33,318 nucleotides of DNA from Bacteroides sp. (GTDB lineage: Bacteria; Bacteroidota; Bacteroidia; Bacteroidales; Bacteroidaceae). Below are positions 2,322-27,824 of the stretch, piece after piece. The stretch spans positions 1-33,318 of the forward strand of contig JAGATY010000004.1 of assembly GCA_017621035.1 (NCBI GenBank), given 5' to 3'. The position numbers and the translations under genes are program-made. The notes below the pieces were generated by a model that was given only the letters and a program-made list of their open reading frames with translations, was not told the origin of the DNA and did not search any database. Every line of letters starts with the position of its first letter. Within the stretch, counting starts at the first letter, position 1.

Positions 2322-4184
2322 ATGGAACAACTGAAGCATGAATGCGGCGTGGCGATGATTCGCCTGCTGAGGCCGCTGGAGTATTACGAGCAGAAGTATG
2401 GCTCGCGGATGTACGGGCTGCACAAACTCTATCTGTTGATGGAGAAGCAGCACAACCGCGGACAGGAGGGCGCCGGCATGGTGTGCGTCAAGCTGGACGC
2501 CCGTCCGGGTGAGGAGTACATGTTCCGCGAGCGGGCACTGGGAGCAGGCGCCATCACGGAGATTTTCGACCGCCTGCAACTGCCCACCGCCTGCGAACTC
2601 TACATGGGACACCTCCGGTACAGCACTACCGGGAAGCGTGGCCTTTCTTATGTCCATCCCTTCCTCCGCCGCAGCAACTACCGCGCCAACAACCTCGCCC
2701 TGTGCGGCAATTTCAACATGACCAACGTAGACGAAACCTTCCATCGCATCACCGACGAGGGGCAGCATCCGCGACAGTATGCCGACACCTACATCATGCT
2801 GGAACAGGTGGGACATCGCCTGGACCGTGAGGTGGAACATCTCTACGACGCCTGCCGCGCCCGGGGACTGAAGGGCATGGAGGCCACGGCCTACATCGAA
2901 GCCCACATCGACCTGGCCAACGTGTTGCGCACGGCCAGCCGTGATTGGGACGGAGGTTACGTGATGTGTGGCGTGACGGGAAGCGGAGAGAGCTTTGCCC
3001 TGCGCGACCCCTGGGGCATCCGTCCGGCCTACTGGTACATGGACGACGAGGTGATGGTGCTGGCCTCCGAACGACCCGTCATCCAGACGGTGCTGAACGT
3101 GACGGCCGAGCGCGTGAACGAACTGCAGCCCGGACAGGCACTACTCCTCAGTAAGGCGGGACAGCTGCGGTTAGAGCAAATCAATCCCGCCCGGGAGAAG
3201 CGGGCATGCTCCTTCGAGCGCATCTACTTCAGCCGGGGAAGTGACGTGGATATATATAAGGAAAGGAAACTGCTGGGCGAGAAGCTGGTGGCACCCGTGC
3301 TGGAGGCCATCGGCGGAGACATTGCCCACACGGTCTTCTCCTTCATCCCCAACACCGCCGAGGTGGCCTTCTACGGACTGCTGGAGGGATTCGACAACTA
3401 CCTGAACGAGCTGAAGGTGCGCCAGATAGAGGCACTGGGCCACAACCCCGACCACAACGAGCTGGAGCGCATCCTCTCCCTGCGCATCCGCAGCGAGAAG
3501 GTGGCCATCAAGGACATCAAGCTGCGCACCTTCATCGCCGAGGGGAACAGCCGCAACGACCTGGCCGCCCACGTCTACGACATCACCTACGGAAGCCTCC
3601 GAGCGGGGGTGGACAACCTGGTCGTCATCGACGACAGCATCGTGCGCGGCACTACCCTCCGGCAGAGCATCATCGGCATACTGGACCGCCTCGGGCCGAA
3701 GAAGATTGTCATCGTCAGCTCCTCGCCGCAGGTGCGCTACCCCGACTACTACGGCATCGACATGGCCAGCATGGAGCAGTTCATTGCCTTCCGTGCTGCC
3801 ATCGCCCTGCTGAAGGAGCGGGGCAGGGAAGACATCATCACCTCGGCCTACCGCAAGGCCAAGGCACAGGAGGCTCTCCCCAAAGAGCTGATGCAGAACC
3901 CCGTGAAGGACATCTACGCCCCCTTCACCGACCGGGAAATCTCCGCCAAGATGGTGGAACTCCTCACCCCGCCGGGCACACGGGCGCAGGTGGAGATTGT
4001 CTACCAGACGCTGGACGGCCTGCACGAGGCCTGCCCCAACCACACGGGCGACTGGTACTTCAGCGGAGACTATCCCACACCGGGCGGAGTGAAGCTGCTG
4101 AACAAATCGTTTATAGAATACATTGAAACCACATGGCACGCAGATGACGCAGATGCGGCAGATTTGCGCGGATTGAAAATATAA
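2322..4184 (+). CDS. Amidophosphoribosyltransferase, long divergent PurF-type
   Basis: A 620-residue PurF-like enzyme, predicted to make phosphoribosylamine from PRPP and glutamine (first step of purine synthesis). The N-terminal class II glutaminase begins at Cys8 (HECGVAM), implying removal of a seven-residue propeptide to expose the nucleophile; RGQEGAG and the FALRDPWGIRP stretch are typical of the domain. The PRPP-binding loop VVIDDSIVRGTT is at residues 434-445. Between them a segment of roughly 100 residues is unlike standard PurF: the usual PDSG motif is replaced by SFIPNTAEVAF, and the protein is about 130-150 residues longer than ordinary PurF. A separate purF may exist elsewhere in the genome, so no symbol is given. 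It is followed by carA in the same unit. The last 15 residues (606-620) and the stop codon come from a palindromic repeat (4136-4221). Confidence 0.85.
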   Translation: MEQLKHECGVAMIRLLRPLEYYEQKYGSRMYGLHKLYLLMEKQHNRGQEGAGMVCVKLDARPGEEYMFRERALGAGAITEIFDRLQLPTACELYMGHLRYSTTGKRGLSYVHPFLRRSNYRANNLALCGNFNMTNVDETFHRITDEGQHPRQYADTYIMLEQVGHRLDREVEHLYDACRARGLKGMEATAYIEAHIDLANVLRTASRDWDGGYVMCGVTGSGESFALRDPWGIRPAYWYMDDEVMVLASERPVIQTVLNVTAERVNELQPGQALLLSKAGQLRLEQINPAREKRACSFERIYFSRGSDVDIYKERKLLGEKLVAPVLEAIGGDIAHTVFSFIPNTAEVAFYGLLEGFDNYLNELKVRQIEALGHNPDHNELERILSLRIRSEKVAIKDIKLRTFIAEGNSRNDLAAHVYDITYGSLRAGVDNLVVIDDSIVRGTTLRQSIIGILDRLGPKKIVIVSSSPQVRYPDYYGIDMASMEQFIAFRAAIALLKERGREDIITSAYRKAKAQEALPKELMQNPVKDIYAPFTDREISAKMVELLTPPGTRAQVEIVYQTLDGLHEACPNHTGDWYFSGDYPTPGGVKLLNKSFIEYIETTWHADDADAADLRGLKI

Positions 4185-4221
4185 TCTGCGGTCATCTGCA
4201 CAATCTGCGTCATCTGCGTGC
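4136..4221. repeat. Palindromic repeat, gcagatgacgcagat type, across a gene end
   Basis: Arms at 4136-4174 and 4183-4221 are inverted copies matching at about 32 of 39 positions, including 19 consecutive bases at the outer ends. The left arm encodes HADDADAADLRG at the C terminus of the amidophosphoribosyltransferase, the loop holds its stop codon (4182-4184), and the right arm ends 26 bp before the carA start. Each arm is itself made of near-repeats of gcagatgacgcagat. The transcript could form a long hairpin between the two genes. Confidence 0.8.
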
Positions 4222-4247: not shown

Positions 4248-5381
4248 ATGAAGAACGTAACATTGATTCTCGACGACGGCACCCGCTTCACGGGCCGCTC
4301 GTTCGGGTACGAAAAGGAGGTGGCGGGCGAAGTGGTGTTCAACACCGCCATGACGGGATACCCCGAGAGCCTGACCGACCCCTCGTATGCCGGTCAGCTG
4401 ATGGTGCTGACTTACCCGCTGGTGGGAAACTACGGCGTGCCGCCCTGCACCACCGGAGCCGACGGACTGCCCACCTATCTGGAGAGCGGCCGCATCCATG
4501 CCGACGCCATCATCGTGAGCGACTACAGCGAACGCTTCAGCCACTGGAACGCGGCCGAGAGTCTGGCCGACTGGCTGAGGCGCGAACACATCCCCGGCAT
4601 CACGGGCATCGACACCCGCGCACTGACGCAAATCCTCCGCGAGCGGGGCGTGATGATGGGGAAAATCTTGTTTAATGAAGAAGATTTCCAAACACAGAGA
4701 CACAAAGACACGGAGGAAACCATCTCTGTGTCTCCGTGTCTCTGTGTTCCCAACTATGGCAGCATCAACTACGTGGACCGAGTCTCCTGCAAGGAGATTA
4801 TCCGCTACAACGAGGGCGCCGGAAAGAAGGTTCTTCTCGTGGATTGCGGCGTGAAAGCCAACATAATAAGGTGTCTGCTGAAGAGGGGCGTCGAGGTCAT
4901 CCGCGTGCCGTGGAACTACGACTTCAGCGGGCTGCAGTACGACGGGCTCTTCATCAGCAACGGGCCGGGCGACCCCGATACCTGCGATGCCGCCGTGCAG
5001 AACATCCGCCGAGCCATGACCGACCCCTCGCTCCCCATCTTCGGCATCTGCATAGGCAACCAGCTGCTGGCCAAGGCCGCCGGAGCCTCCGTCTACAAGC
5101 TGAAGTACGGACACCGCAGCCACAACCAGCCCGTGCGGAGGGTGGGCACCAACCGATGCTTCATCACCAGCCAGAACCACGGCTATGCGGTGGACGCCGA
5201 CACGCTGCCCGCCGACTGGGAACCGCTCTTCGTCAACATGAACGACGGCTCCAACGAGGGCATCCGCCACCGCACCAACCCCTGGTTCTCCGCCCAGTTC
5301 CACCCCGAGGCGTGCAGCGGGCCTACCGACACGGAGTTCCTCTTCGACGAGTTTGTCCGCCTCGTGGCTCCGAAATCTTAG
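4248..5381 (+). CDS. carA: Carbamoyl-phosphate synthase, small (glutaminase) subunit
   Basis: 377 residues from the ATG at 4248, preceded by aaggag at 4233-4238. It hydrolyses glutamine and channels ammonia to CarB for carbamoyl phosphate, the precursor of pyrimidines and arginine. The N-terminal CPSase small-subunit domain (about 1-140) has FNTAMTGYPESLTDPSY and GIDTRALTQILRERG; the class I amidotransferase domain (about 193-377) has nucleophile Cys268 in GICIGNQ and His352/Glu354 in FHPEA. An in-frame palindrome at 4691-4748 encodes residues 149-167 (QRHKDTEETISVSPCLC), in the linker between the domains, so the fold is probably intact. The next gene is carB, separated by a minisatellite and another copy of the same palindrome. 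A TTG/ATG 30 bp upstream could extend the frame, but the repeat lies there and the SD supports 4248. Confidence 0.95.
   Translation: MKNVTLILDDGTRFTGRSFGYEKEVAGEVVFNTAMTGYPESLTDPSYAGQLMVLTYPLVGNYGVPPCTTGADGLPTYLESGRIHADAIIVSDYSERFSHWNAAESLADWLRREHIPGITGIDTRALTQILRERGVMMGKILFNEEDFQTQRHKDTEETISVSPCLCVPNYGSINYVDRVSCKEIIRYNEGAGKKVLLVDCGVKANIIRCLLKRGVEVIRVPWNYDFSGLQYDGLFISNGPGDPDTCDAAVQNIRRAMTDPSLPIFGICIGNQLLAKAAGASVYKLKYGHRSHNQPVRRVGTNRCFITSQNHGYAVDADTLPADWEPLFVNMNDGSNEGIRHRTNPWFSAQFHPEACSGPTDTEFLFDEFVRLVAPKS
4691..4748. repeat. Palindromic repeat, acacagagacac type, inserted in frame in carA
   Basis: Arms at 4691-4715 and 4724-4748 match as inverted copies at 22 of 25 positions around an 8-nt loop. 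The same element recurs in noncoding DNA at 5827-5906 and 23791-23846, so it is a dispersed repeat and not native carA sequence. Here it is translated, giving residues 149-167 of CarA with no stop codon. Confidence 0.88.
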
Positions 5382-5385
5382 CCGA

Positions 5386-5795
5386 AGAACCTTTCGGAGC
5401 GGTACGAAAGGGTGAAAAACCACTTCGACACCGCCACGAAGCGGTACGAAACGGCTACGAAGCACTTCGAAGGCACCTCGGAGCGGTACGAAACGGCTGC
5501 GAAGCACTTCGACGACGCCTCGGAGCGGTACGAAATGGCTACGAACCCCTTCGACGGCGTTTCGGAGCGGTCGACGGCGGTGCCGAACCACTTCGCAGGC
5601 TTCACGGAGCAGTACGAGGCGGTGCCGAACCACTTCGCCGGCGTCACGGAGCGGTCGGCGGCGGTGTCGAAGCACTTCGGCGGCATCTCGGAGCGGTCGG
5701 CGGCGGTGCCGAAGCACTTCGGCGGCACTTCGGAGTGGTACGAAACGGTGCCGAACCCCTTCGCCGGCATTTCGGAGCGGTACGAAGCCCCCTTG
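5386..5795. repeat. 42-bp minisatellite between carA and carB
   Basis: Eight full 42-bp units begin at 5421, 5463, 5505, 5547, 5589, 5631, 5673 and 5715, flanked by partial units from about 5386 and from 5757 to about 5793. Each unit starts cacttcg or cccttcg, has a central cggagcggtacgaa-type core, and ends cgaag or cgaac, so each junction is a small dyad (cgaag-ca-cttcg). Because 42 is a multiple of three and units lack stops, at least two plus-strand and two minus-strand frames stay open throughout, including a GTG-started frame at 5412-5819 that would encode a 14-residue repeat peptide (HFGGTSERYETVPK-like). I see no convincing start signals and treat it as a noncoding array. Confidence 0.88.
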
Positions 5796-5826
5796 CAATT
5801 AAAATTTGTATGGATTTAATATTCTT

Positions 5827-5906
5827 AGAACACAGAGACGCAAAGACACGGAGTCTTTGTATTTATAGATAAGTTTTTTCTCTGTGTCTCCGTGTCTCTG
5901 TGTTCT
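5827..5906. repeat. Palindromic repeat, acacagagacac type, upstream of carB
   Basis: Arms at 5827-5853 and 5880-5906 match as inverted copies at 23 of 27 positions, with a 26-nt AT-rich loop. This is the same family as the insert in carA, but with a longer loop and in noncoding sequence, ending about 50 bp before the carB start codon. Confidence 0.85.
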
Positions 5907-5957: not shown

Positions 5958-8900
5958 ATGCAAGAAAAACAGATAAAGAAAGTGCTGCTCCTCGGCTCGG
6001 GCGCACTGAAGATAGGCGAAGCCGGCGAGTTTGACTACAGCGGCAGCCAGGCGCTCAAGGCGCTCAGAGAGGAGGGCATCACCTCCGTCCTCATCAACCC
6101 CAACATCGCCACGGTGCAGACCTCGGAGGGCGTGGCCGACCAAATCTACTTCCTCCCCGTCACCCCCTACTTCGTGGAGAAGGTCATCGAGAAGGAACGC
6201 CCCGACGGCGTGCTGCTCTCCTTCGGCGGACAGACGGCGCTGAACTGCGGCGTGGCCCTCTATCAGGCAGGCGTGTTCCGGAAGTACGGCGTCCGTGTGC
6301 TGGGCACCCCCGTGCAGGCCATCATGGACACCGAGGACCGTGAACTGTTCGTCCGCAAGCTGGACGAAATCGGCGTGAAGACCATCAGGAGCGAGGCCGT
6401 GGAGACGCTGGCCGACGCCCGCCGTGCCGCCCGCGAGCTGGGCTACCCCGTCATCATCCGCGCGGCATACGCCCTGGGCGGACTCGGCTCCGGCTTCTGC
6501 GACAACGAGGCGGAGCTGGACGCGCTGGCCGAGAAGGCCTTCTCCTTCTCCCCCCAGGTGCTGGTGGAGAAGAGCCTCAAGGGCTGGAAGGAGGTGGAGT
6601 ATGAGGTGGTGCGCGACCGCTACGACAACTGCATCACCGTGTGCAACATGGAGAACTTCGACCCGCTGGGCATCCACACGGGCGAGTCGATAGTCATCGC
6701 CCCCAGTCAGACCCTCTCCAACACCGACTACCACAAGCTGCGCGAGCTGGCCATCCGCATCATCCGCCACATCGGCATCGTGGGCGAGTGCAACGTGCAG
6801 TACGCCTACGACCCGCAGTCGGAAGACTACCGCGTCATCGAGGTGAACGCCCGCCTCAGCCGCTCGTCCGCCCTGGCTTCCAAAGCCACCGGCTACCCCC
6901 TGGCCTTCGTCGCCGCCAAGCTGGGTCTGGGCTACGGCCTGTTCGAGCTGAAGAACTCCGTCACCAAGACCACGAGCGCCTTCTTCGAGCCGGCGCTGGA
7001 CTATGTGGTGTGCAAAATCCCCCGCTGGGACCTCGGCAAGTTCCACGGCGTGGACCGCGAGTTGGGCAGTTCGATGAAGTCGGTGGGCGAGGTGATGGCC
7101 ATCGGCCGCACCTTCGAGGAAGCCATCCAGAAGGGTCTCCGCATGATAGGGCAAGGCATGCACGGCTTCGTGGAGAACAAGGAGCTGGTCATCCCCGACA
7201 TCGACAAGGCCCTGCGCGAGCCGACCGACAAGCGCATCTTCGTCATCAGCAAAGCCCTCCGTGCCGGCTACTCCGTGGACCAAATCCACGAGCTGACCAA
7301 GATTGACAAGTGGTTCTTGTATAAGCTGGAAAATATTATGGAGACGAGTAAAGAACTGAGAGGCGGACCCTCCCCCGACCCCTCCACAAGGGAGGGGAGT
7401 GGAATGTCCTGCAACGGTATCTACTCCTTCCCCTTGGGGAAGGCCGGGATGGGGTCCGTGTCCGCCCTGCTCCGCAAGGCCAAAGTCCAAGGCTTCTCCG
7501 ACTTCCAAATCGCCCGTGCCCTCGGCCTCGAAGCCACGATGAGCGGCGAGGAGGCCTCGATGCTCGTCCGCCAATGGCGCAAGCAGCTCGGCATCCTCCC
7601 CGTGGTGAAGCAGATAGATACCCTCGCGGCGGAGTATCCGGCGCAGACGAACTACCTCTACCTCACCTATCAGCAGACCCACCTAAATCCTCCCTGTGAG
7701 GGAGGACTTGCGGATAGTCGGAGTAACTTATCTCCCTCCCTCACAGGGAGGGCTGGGGTGGGTCTCGAGGGCAATCTATCTCCCTCCCTCACAGGGAGGG
7801 CCGGGGTGGGTCCCGAGGGGCTTGTGGGTCTCCCTTCCATCATCGTCCTCGGCTCCGGCGCCTACCGCATCGGCTCCTCCGTGGAGTTCGACTGGTGCGG
7901 CGTGCAGGCGTTGAACACCATCCGCAAGGAGGGATGGGAGAGTGTCATGATCAACTACAACCCCGAAACCGTCTCCACCGACTACGACATGTGCGACCGC
8001 CTCTACTTCGACGAGCTGACCTTCGAGCGCGTGATGGACATCATCGAGGTGGAGAACCCCTACGGCGTCATCGTCTCCACCGGCGGACAGATTCCCAATA
8101 ACCTCGCCCTCCGCCTCGACGCGCAGGGCGTGAACATCCTCGGCACCTCGGCCCGGAGCATCGACAATGCCGAAGACCGCGACAAGTTCTCCGTCATGCT
8201 CGACCGCATCGGCGTGGACCAGCCCGAGTGGAGCGCGCTCACCTCGATGGAGGACATTCACCGCTTCATCGACAAGGTGGGCTTTCCCGTGCTGGTGCGC
8301 CCGTCGTATGTGCTGAGCGGTGCGGCCATGAACGTCTGCTCCAACGAGGAGGAGCTGGAACGCTTCCTCAAGCTGGCCGCCAACGTGAGCAAGAAGCACC
8401 CCGTGGTGGTGAGCCAGTTCATCGAGCACGCCAAGGAGGTGGAGATGGATGCCGTGGCCCGCAACGGCGAAATCATCGTCTACGCCATCTCGGAACACAT
8501 CGAGTACGCCGGCGTACACTCGGGCGACGCCACCATCCAGTTCCCCCCGCAGAAGCTCTATGTGGAGACCGTCCGCCGCATCAAGCGCATCACCCGCCAG
8601 ATAGCCAAGGAGCTGAACATCTCCGGCCCCTTCAACATCCAGTTCCTGGCGCGCGACAACGACATCAAGGTCATCGAGTGCAACCTCCGTGCCTCGCGCT
8701 CCTTCCCCTTCGTGAGCAAGGTGCTGAAGATAAACTTCATCGAGTTGGCCACCCGCGTGATGCTCGGTCTGCCCGTCGAGAAGCCGGAGAAGAACCTCTT
8801 CGACCTCGACTATGTGGGCATCAAGGCCAGCCAGTTCTCCTTCAACCGCCTGCAGAAGGCCGACCCCGTGCTGGGCGTCGACATGGCCTCCACCGGCGAA

Positions 8901-9383
8901 GTGGGCTGCATCGGTCAGGACACCTCGTGCGCCATCCTCAAGGCGATGCTCTCCGTGGGCTACCGCATTCCCGACAAGGAGAAGGGCATCTTGCTCTCCA
9001 CCGGCAACGCCAAGCAGAAGGCCGATATGCTGGACGCCGCCCGTCGCTTGCACAAGCAGGGCTACCGGCTCTATGCCACCGGCGGCTCGTCCCGCTTCCT
9101 CACCGAGAACGGTGTGCCGAATACCCTCGTCCATTGGCCGAGCGAGGATGCGCAGCCCCAAGCCCTCGACCTGCTCCACCGCAAGGAGATTGACCTGGTG
9201 GTGAACATCCCGAAGAACCTCACCAGCGGCGAGCTGACCAACGGCTACAAAATCCGCCGTGCCGCCATCGACCTGAACATTCCGCTCATCACCAACGCCC
9301 GCCTCGCCAGCGCCTTCATCAGCGCCTTCTGCTCGATGACGGTGGATGATTTGGCGATAAAGAGTTGGGGGGAGTATAAGTAG
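5958..9383 (+). CDS. carB: Carbamoyl-phosphate synthase, large subunit
   Basis: 1141 residues from the ATG at 5958 (MQEKQIKKVLLLGSGALKIG). Longer frames start in the upstream repeat and lack homology. It makes carbamoyl phosphate from bicarbonate, two ATP and ammonia from CarA. Two ATP-grasp synthetase halves begin at KVLLLGSGALKIGEAGEFDYSG and, near residue 626, SIIVLGSGAYRIGSSVEFDWCG; an MGS-like allosteric domain occupies roughly 1005-1130. Family members have about 1070 residues, and the roughly 68 extra are explained by two in-frame repeat insertions: residues 470-500, within the oligomerisation domain, and about 574-620, just before the second half. Both fall in probable surface or linker positions, and reading frame and domain motifs are preserved, so the enzyme is probably active. 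The gene is strongly GC-rich. It ends in another repeat-type hairpin (9395-9437). Confidence 0.96.
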   Translation: MQEKQIKKVLLLGSGALKIGEAGEFDYSGSQALKALREEGITSVLINPNIATVQTSEGVADQIYFLPVTPYFVEKVIEKERPDGVLLSFGGQTALNCGVALYQAGVFRKYGVRVLGTPVQAIMDTEDRELFVRKLDEIGVKTIRSEAVETLADARRAARELGYPVIIRAAYALGGLGSGFCDNEAELDALAEKAFSFSPQVLVEKSLKGWKEVEYEVVRDRYDNCITVCNMENFDPLGIHTGESIVIAPSQTLSNTDYHKLRELAIRIIRHIGIVGECNVQYAYDPQSEDYRVIEVNARLSRSSALASKATGYPLAFVAAKLGLGYGLFELKNSVTKTTSAFFEPALDYVVCKIPRWDLGKFHGVDRELGSSMKSVGEVMAIGRTFEEAIQKGLRMIGQGMHGFVENKELVIPDIDKALREPTDKRIFVISKALRAGYSVDQIHELTKIDKWFLYKLENIMETSKELRGGPSPDPSTREGSGMSCNGIYSFPLGKAGMGSVSALLRKAKVQGFSDFQIARALGLEATMSGEEASMLVRQWRKQLGILPVVKQIDTLAAEYPAQTNYLYLTYQQTHLNPPCEGGLADSRSNLSPSLTGRAGVGLEGNLSPSLTGRAGVGPEGLVGLPSIIVLGSGAYRIGSSVEFDWCGVQALNTIRKEGWESVMINYNPETVSTDYDMCDRLYFDELTFERVMDIIEVENPYGVIVSTGGQIPNNLALRLDAQGVNILGTSARSIDNAEDRDKFSVMLDRIGVDQPEWSALTSMEDIHRFIDKVGFPVLVRPSYVLSGAAMNVCSNEEELERFLKLAANVSKKHPVVVSQFIEHAKEVEMDAVARNGEIIVYAISEHIEYAGVHSGDATIQFPPQKLYVETVRRIKRITRQIAKELNISGPFNIQFLARDNDIKVIECNLRASRSFPFVSKVLKINFIELATRVMLGLPVEKPEKNLFDLDYVGIKASQFSFNRLQKADPVLGVDMASTGEVGCIGQDTSCAILKAMLSVGYRIPDKEKGILLSTGNAKQKADMLDAARRLHKQGYRLYATGGSSRFLTENGVPNTLVHWPSEDAQPQALDLLHRKEIDLVVNIPKNLTSGELTNGYKIRRAAIDLNIPLITNARLASAFISAFCSMTVDDLAIKSWGEYK
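7365..7457. repeat. G/C-rich palindromic repeat inserted in frame in carB (copy 1)
   Basis: Inverted arms at 7365-7400 and 7423-7457 (ggaccctcccccg paired with cgggatggggtcc at the outer ends). Each arm also folds on itself, for example ccttccccttggggaagg at about 7426-7443. It is translated without stop as residues about 470-500 of CarB (PSPDPSTREGSG and SFPLGKAGMGS), unlike flanking CarB sequence. Confidence 0.85.
7676..7820. repeat. G/C-rich palindromic repeat inserted in frame in carB (copy 2, right arm duplicated)
   Basis: The left arm (7676-7706, gacccacc to ggagga) is inverted relative to two right arms at 7733-7764 and 7781-7812. The right arm lies in a 48-nt unit repeated twice, read as LSPSLTGRAGVG-LEGN and LSPSLTGRAGVG-PEGL. 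Arms fold internally (ccctgtgaggg; ccctcacaggg). The insert is open in the CarB frame and gives residues about 574-620. Confidence 0.87.
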
Positions 9384-23760: not shown

Positions 23761-23790
23761 ATAATTATGGATTATGAATTTTGAATTATA
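23761..23790. repeat. AT-rich repeat (ttatgaattttgaat type), copy 1
   Basis: A stretch of attatgaattttgaattata shares a 15-nt core (ttatgaattttgaat) with 24882-24896. It sits immediately 5' of the nucleoside phosphorylase start codon and adjoins the palindrome at 23791. Confidence 0.65.
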
Positions 23791-23846
23791 ACACGGAGAC
23801 ACAGAGACCCGGAGGAAAAAACTCTGTGTCTTCGTGTCTCTGTGTC
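23791..23846. repeat. Palindromic repeat, acacagagacac type, between floA and the phosphorylase gene
   Basis: Arms acacggagacacagagac... (23791-23814) and ctctgtgtcttcgtgtctct... (23823-23846) face each other around an 8-nt loop. This is the third copy of the family found in carA and before carB, here in noncoding DNA. Confidence 0.85.
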
Positions 23847-27014: not shown

Positions 27015-27824
27015 ATGCCGAAGTTTACAGAAGAAGACAAATTGCTCCGCCGTATTGAGAGGCGTTTTGCTAAAGGTGTGGTGGAGTATGAACTGATAGA
27101 AGAGGGTGACCGCATCCTTATCGGATTGTCGGGGGGCAAGGACTCACTTGCTTTACTTGAACTATTGGCTCGTCGCTCGCGCATCCATAAACCTCATTTC
27201 TCGGTAGTGGCAACCCATGTGGTAATGAAGAACATCCCTTATCAGAGTGATGTGGAGTATCTGCGGGACTTTTGTGCCAATGCCGGCGTGGAGCTAATCC
27301 TTCATGAGGCAGAGTTTAATGCCTCTACTGACAACCGTAAGTCTCCCTGTTTCCTTTGTTCCTGGAACCGGCGGAAGGCACTCTTTACCGTGGCCAAGGA
27401 ACAGGGCTGCAACAAAATTGCCCTAGGGCATCATATGGATGACATTCTTGAAACGCTTTTGATGAACATCACCTTCCAAGGAGCATTCGGTACCATGCCT
27501 CCCAAACTTGTGATGAAGAAGTTTGACATGACCATTATTCGTCCCCTCTGCTTGGTACACGAATCAGACCTATTGCAACTGGCCGCCTTGCATGCCTACC
27601 GTAAACAGGTAAAGAATTGTCCCCATGAGCATGAGTCACATCGTACCTCCATGAAAGGCATCTTGCAACAACTGGAAGCTATGAATCCTGAAGCCCGCTA
27701 CAGCCTCTGGGGAAGTATGACCAATGTACAGGAAGAATTGCTACCTACCCCTCAGAATCCGGAAAATCAGAAATCCAAAATCAACAATCAAAAATCAGAA
27801 ATCCAAAATCAACAATCTATATGA
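27015..27824 (+). CDS. TtcA-like tRNA 2-thiocytidine synthase
   Basis: A 269-residue PP-loop ATPase, predicted to thiolate C32 of certain tRNAs. The PP-loop is SGGKDS at 39-44; the iron-sulfur ligands expected for TtcA are visible as Cys112-x2-Cys115 (CFLC) and Cys202 (KNCPHE). GHHMDDILET is the second family motif. The body ends near MTNVQEELLPTP (about 247); the last 20 or so residues (Asn/Gln/Lys/Ser-rich, NQKSKINNQKSEIQNQ) are encoded by a duplicated AT-rich repeat at 27763-27817. Its stop overlaps the start of the next gene (ATGA). I leave the symbol blank because sulfur-carrier paralogues share this fold. Confidence 0.86.
   Translation: MPKFTEEDKLLRRIERRFAKGVVEYELIEEGDRILIGLSGGKDSLALLELLARRSRIHKPHFSVVATHVVMKNIPYQSDVEYLRDFCANAGVELILHEAEFNASTDNRKSPCFLCSWNRRKALFTVAKEQGCNKIALGHHMDDILETLLMNITFQGAFGTMPPKLVMKKFDMTIIRPLCLVHESDLLQLAALHAYRKQVKNCPHEHESHRTSMKGILQQLEAMNPEARYSLWGSMTNVQEELLPTPQNPENQKSKINNQKSEIQNQQSI
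27763..27817. repeat. Tandem 28-nt AT-rich repeat in the 3' end of the ttcA-like gene
   Basis: Two identical 27-nt copies (27763-27789 and 27791-27817), starting aaaatcagaaatccaaaa and ending tcaacaatc, are separated by one A. They are translated as an Asn/Gln/Lys-rich tail. The 28-nt period changes frame, so the two copies read differently. Confidence 0.85.

Follow-up and report, generated by a model that had tools for sequence, protein, structure and literature searches.

The carA gene of this Bacteroides genome contains, in the linker between the two domains of its product, a 58-bp palindromic element that keeps the reading frame. We consider it probable (about 0.78) that this feature is a non-autonomous, hairpin-forming dispersed repeat that was inserted in the interdomain linker and is read in frame. 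Directly supported are the near-identity of the element with tens of genomic copies, the intact frame, the interdomain position and the absence of the insert from the parsed relatives. The window, i.e. the whole stretch of DNA that was analysed (33,318 nt), corresponds to contig C80 of the genome, a draft that is 91% complete and totals 2,635,508 bases over 93 contigs. The features around carA, and the further copies of its element in the window, are as follows.

4248..5381, plus strand: carA, carbamoyl-phosphate synthase small subunit, 377 aa, containing the translated palindrome (ORF, Pfam)
4691..4748, plus strand: 58-bp palindromic element, open in all six frames, coding for residues 149-167 (repeat scan, folding, translation)
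4691..4715, plus strand: left arm, three near-tandem 8-mers, A-ACACAGAG-ACACAAAG-ACACGGAG
4724..4748, minus strand: right arm, the 8-mers as an inverted copy
5829..5905, plus strand: second copy, in the carA-carB intergenic region, 26-nt loop (repeat scan, folding)
23790..23846, plus strand: third copy, between two minus-strand ORFs, 7-nt loop (repeat scan, folding)

The earlier note on this DNA had described a palindrome at 4691-4748 coding for CarA residues 149-167, and coordinates, arms and translation all agree with that description. The 25-nt arms are 88% complementary and enclose an 8-nt loop, and the RNA is predicted to form a hairpin of -39.1 kcal/mol (z -7.9 versus shuffles). The element spans residues 148-167, with TQRHKDTEETISVSPCLCV corresponding to residues 149-167, and the insert region includes the peptide stretches QRHKDTEE and ISVSPCLCVPNYG. 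The frame is kept through the palindrome, as had been claimed, being open from the ATG at 4248 to the stop at 5381. Both further copies were recovered at nearly the positions given before (5829-5905 for 5827, 23790-23846 for 23791), the first of them having an exact 27-nt repeat in common with the carA element. With at most one mismatch allowed, ACACAGAGACAC occurs 10 times in the window, while 100 shuffles gave 0.10 occurrences on average. A separate array, with many short inverted motifs and a tandem period of 42 nt, covers the last part of carA and continues into the carA-carB intergenic region (5353-5823).

The Pfam domains CPSase_sm_chain (residues 6-140) and GATase (196-371) flank residues 149-167, placing the palindrome between the two CarA domains, where the earlier note had put it. 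Both halves of CarA on either side of the insert match relatives, and C268, H352 and E354, which we take to be the catalytic residues, are among the columns invariant across a 21-sequence alignment. The linker, measured from DTR to VSCK, has 61 aa in the window versus 45 aa in most of the relatives parsed (78 of 80). A gap of about 19 residues at the repeat edges had been predicted; the alignment does reveal an insertion relative to relatives, but the net gain is 16 residues, TQRHKDTEETISVSPC, not 19. About three residues of the original linker thus appear to have been lost to the element, and an insertion that is not clean in this way counts against the insertion reading. The palindrome-encoded residues are absent from all parsed relatives (78 of 80; 31 of 33 genus loci), and thus no parsed orthologue has the same 19 residues, which keeps the earlier claim standing; human CPS1 (chain 5dot_A) is gapped at the insert position. 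We infer from the sequence that the element is translated as extra linker residues.

A search of the own genome with the element gave 116 matches, many of them half-elements; the absence of other genomic copies, which would have told against the earlier claim, was thus not what we found. The ACACAGAG family comprises at least 74 arms (defined by at most 6 mismatches to a 24-mer; two arms on C67 are poor) at at least 40 loci, and forms 29 head-to-head pairs with loops of 7-47 nt. These counts of arms and loci are lower bounds, because the scan covered only stretches around the matches (115,595 nt). For the exact ACACAGAG pattern the own genome has 43 matches, and for its reversed control 0. The 40 loci represent fewer than 40 independent insertions, since some copies are segmental duplicates with shared flanks: those on C12, C13 and C63 share long flanks, and those on C40 (both ends) and C46 do likewise. 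Copies also lie about 300-400 nt from the ends of C12, C13, C40, C46 and C63, and these ends share a repeat of at least 54 nt. At gathering score, Rfam gave no family for 8 own-genome loci and L192.

The copies lie mostly between genes, and by eye the carA copy alone is clearly within a real gene (1 of the 40 loci), the 12 other overlapping ORFs (at least 100 aa) looking antisense, spurious or like over-long N-termini. The proposal that the family may have spread through genes is therefore not supported by the genome-wide view. All six frames are open in only 2 of the 29 full copies (carA and 23790), which are those with the shortest loops. Six-frame openness was rejected as a selected property, because 70 of the 74 arms (95%) are open versus 86% of shuffled arms, i.e. 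openness of the arms is mostly explained by composition.

An assembly artefact, in which repeat-bearing contigs were joined inside carA, could in principle mimic such an insertion; the genome is a draft, the carA element has its exact 27-nt repeat in common with the neighbouring copy, and repeats lie near several contig ends. We consider this very improbable, given that the insert leaves the frame unbroken, that both CarA halves match relatives and that insertions at the same linker are present in other genomes. Somewhat less remote, but still improbable, is that the element is functional in carA mRNA or DNA (through stability, pausing or attenuation) and is selected rather than tolerated. Strong hairpins are predicted both here and for the relatives' CarA repeats (DNA view of the window and 10 loci), and the mostly intergenic location of the own-genome copies would also suit a function. 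Most parsed relatives, however, have the insert-free 45-aa linker, and the repeat type at the CarA site is not conserved. Covariation of the arms was not found within the ACACAGAG family (3.38 mismatches within a copy versus 3.27 between copies), nor was a T-run found 3' of the carA element.

Under the preferred reading, insertion of a dispersed repeat, a hairpin-forming copy would have entered the carA linker by copying or transposition, and would have survived there because its loop is short, no frame has a stop codon and the linker accepts a change of length. Some copies suggest how the repeat may move. Seven have a common loop, and most of these, together with one more, also have common flanks, giving a form of about 130 bp with outer imperfect inverted ends like AGAATCTGTTTGGATTTTATT. 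The AGAATCTGTTTGGATTTTATT-type end pattern (at most 3 mismatches) has 23 matches versus 1 for the reversed control; 5 of the 23 adjoin ACACAGAG pairs, and similar ends also cap five palindromes of about 175 bp with different content. As some copies have this MITE-like form with outer inverted ends, a trans-acting transposase would be the most likely mover of the long form. The carA copy is the core alone, without these outer ends, and core-only copies such as this one would derive from the long form, which is the weakest step of the scheme. No target-site duplication was evident by eye in the ACACAGAG copies compared. No match to PF01797 was present in the own genome, which is 91% complete (the control was positive in 5 of 14 genomes), and the one own-genome match to PF01609, on contig C86, has no evident link to the element. 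A palindromic MITE-like element of about 175 bp, with ends like AGAGTCTGTTTTGATTTTATT, was seen at L191, L192, L194 and L195.

In a set of 61 genomes drawn from among relatives, the ACACAGAG pattern was present in 5 (43 matches in G000, 18 in G034, 3 each in G018 and G027, and 1 in G015; reversed control 0); the 24 members of the set that lie outside the genus all lack it. An even draw across the phylum gave the pattern in 3 of 395 genomes, own genome included, the other two belonging to other families (five matches in G318, one in G272); the reversed control gave one match, in G240. Taken together, 5 of 61 and 3 of 395 indicate a patchy distribution with strong amplification in few genomes. 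In G318, a distant genome within the phylum, ACACAGAG arms occur as direct repeats with 73-nt spacing (C18:145314-145483).

The genes on both sides of carA carry palindromes as well.

5958..9383, plus strand: carB, 1141 aa, with two other palindromic insertions (ORF, Pfam, comparison with relatives)
7365..7457, plus strand: a different palindrome within carB, CarB residues 470-500
7675..7845, plus strand: palindromic insertion within carB, CarB residues 573-630 approximately, right edge approximate (arms 7675-7705, 7735-7765, 7783-7812)
4136..4221, plus strand: another multi-copy palindrome, of GCAGATGAC type, over the stop codon (4182-4184) of the 620-aa gene upstream of carA

The segment of CarB with the first insertion has 73 aa versus 47-56 aa in most correctly cut relatives, and the Pfam CPSase_L_D3 match stops inside this insertion, at residue 472 (profile position 56 of 80). 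The segment with the second has 68 aa versus 27 aa in most parsed relatives, seven of which have 35-44. The idea that the CarB insert 7665-7825 belongs to a high-copy family was dropped, since besides the query it had one partial match of 34 nt (E at most 0.01), and the word 'dispersed' is therefore unsupported here for this insert. Repeat-like insertions at the first CarB site were also seen at L052 and L072, including the segment SERSEES...HFVRND, presumably a widespread translated repeat. The palindrome at 4136-4221 has 40 genome matches, itself included. The 620-aa protein was compared with 61 relatives, many of which have YQF as their last residues, level with its residue 606; the window tail TTWHADDADAADLRGLKI, coded largely by the left arm of the palindrome, is present in none of the 61 relatives listed, and the palindrome rewrites the C-terminus of this protein. 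With carA, carB and the upstream gene each bearing a palindrome, three adjacent genes would have palindromes read as protein.

The relatives' CarA genes have repeats of other kinds at the same linker, and these bring in a different explanation, in which, instead of transposition, ectopic recombination or template switching with a repeat elsewhere exchanged an earlier linker repeat, and one arm is copied from the other during replication, which keeps the arms complementary. We regard it as a serious contender, though one that falls short of even odds. Of 115 CarA regions, 98 were parsed, the anchor motifs having failed in the other 17, and the 98 yielded 85 distinct segments. Under a simple motif rule, which counts a few degenerate arrays as 'neither', the linker (site 1) is of GAATGAA type in 8, CAATTGA type in 5, ACACAGAG type in 1 (the window) and neither in 71. 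GAATGAA arrays translate there as NEELRMKNEE and CAATTGA arrays as AIDNGQLTIDN. A second site, directly before KKVVLVDCG, is long in 27 of the 85 and often holds the inverted counterpart (DSSFLIPHSSL, NCQLSIVNCQL). The CarA linker is a place where, within the genus, such repeats recurrently land or turn over. An array of heptamer-like AAAATCA units, in style akin to the relatives' CarA heptamers, was also seen in the window at 27763-27817.

Where the two sites pair, the aligned arms measure 28-41 nt (nine cases) and enclose 93-181 nt of CarA coding sequence (eight cases measured). The summed score of within-species pairing was 415 versus 262 for shuffled pairing (sd 24; 0 of 20000 shuffles as high), a permutation test that ignores relatedness, and this limits what it says for recombination or copying. 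In 10 species pairs, which were hand-chosen and are non-independent, a species' own pairing was better than swapped pairing 9 times. At L161 and L064 the complementarity between the sites extends past the heptamers. On the CarA core tree, L073 (CAATTGA) groups as sister to L060 (GAATGAA; support 99/74) and differs from it in type at both sites, and L126, with no repeat, is the sister of L169 (CAATTGA; support 100/95). Some close relatives show a joint switch of repeat type at the two CarA sites. The differing repeats at these two sites, matched arms within species and the switch between tree neighbours all favour recombination or copying, and these two-site pairs point to replacement more directly than to transposition. 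The window fits in one respect: its right linker flank, NYGSINYVDRVSCKEII, by eye resembles the type of the repeat-bearing relatives.

Other results weigh against replacement by recombination or copying. Inverted-repeat alignment of sites 1 and 2 scored at least 16.5 in 13 of the 27 CarAs with a long site 2, but the other 14 scored at most 13; they pair poorly with site 1 and include L163 and L166, which have an array at site 2 only. At L055 no pairing was found across the two sites, although the linker holds its own inverted copy. In the ACACAGAG family itself complementarity is no better within than between copies. Repeat type requires 12 changes on the tree (four states) versus a shuffled mean of 13.6, a value as low being reached in 10 of 200 shuffles; repeat types are thus weakly clustered, which speaks against this explanation, and since 12 is hardly below 13.6 the repeat label turns over fast. 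The window CarA sits on a long branch with unsure placement. Transposition, as in the preferred reading, and replacement of repeats by recombination or templated copying are non-exclusive.

Tentatively, and at less than even odds, we suggest that the CarA linker and the second loop may form a shared cassette, in which unrelated hairpin repeats replace each other as matched pairs with essential coding sequence in the loop. If true, an unrecognised process would copy the arms onto each other or swap both as a unit, and would repeatedly enlarge core enzymes (CarA, CarB and the upstream gene) in Bacteroides. Because related species have different repeats or none at one site, carA is a natural experiment, offering a chance to ask whether transposition, inter-repeat recombination or hairpin-templated copying is at work. 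The results extend translated palindromic repeats to a common gut genus and to a core enzyme of pyrimidine and arginine synthesis, and they caution that repeat traffic, and not protein function, can lie behind the linker length of such proteins.

Several known systems resemble the carA element in part. RPEs (Rickettsia palindromic elements) are described in the available text of PMC3733652 as dispersed palindromes lying in frame inside ORFs that likely code for functional proteins; the available parts of PMC2635572 and PMC12306157 give further context on RPEs and REPs, while those of PMC5771137 have no bearing on the subject. The carA family is likewise palindromic and multi-copy, with one copy in frame giving extra residues, but its host belongs to another phylum, its arms are made of 8-mers and 1 of 40 loci is clearly intragenic, the likeness being one of description. 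The analogy with Rickettsia drawn in the earlier note is sound in the sense of 'works like', and fails as a statement of membership. REPs are small palindromes, mostly intergenic, with some inside ORFs; different REPs lie at about one recB site in two Xanthomonas species, and CGTC repeats are present in Bacteroidetes, among five phyla (PMC3733652, available text). The carA family shares the small size and the occasional location in ORFs, and recB is a precedent for differing repeats at one site. It differs from REPs in its arms of about 25 nt made of tandem 8-mers, in stem ends without GTAG/CGTC and in that a Y1 transposase (RAYT), such as is reported for REPs of the GTAG type, was not found. 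The carA copy has no GTAG/CGTC tag, and by eye none stands at the stem ends of the 29 pairs, such motifs being scattered in few loops and flanks only. As both the tag and PF01797 are missing, membership of the REP/RAYT system was rejected.

PMC9769881 is listed as a paper on a MITE of Cardinium. The subset of ACACAGAG copies with outer imperfect inverted ends, about 130 bp in all, resembles MITEs; the carA copy differs in being core-only, as does the family in that target duplication is not evident by eye. Cyanobacterial STRR repeats are scattered arrays of short tandem units. TAACTGA-type heptamer direct repeats, mainly intergenic, are described from genomes that include five Bacteroidetes (PMC4679880, available text). 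The arrays at the relatives' CarA sites are likewise scattered and built of short tandem units, but they are translated and often form inverted pairs, in contrast to the mainly intergenic, direct arrays in the available text of PMC4679880. Among the top-ranked matches of a literature search whose scope lay mostly outside subscription journals, there was no report of translated palindromes in Bacteroides. Translated palindromes as such are already known, from the RPEs of Rickettsia and from intragenic REPs; with no REP-type transposase found here, what is new is an untagged form whose arms are built of 8-mers.
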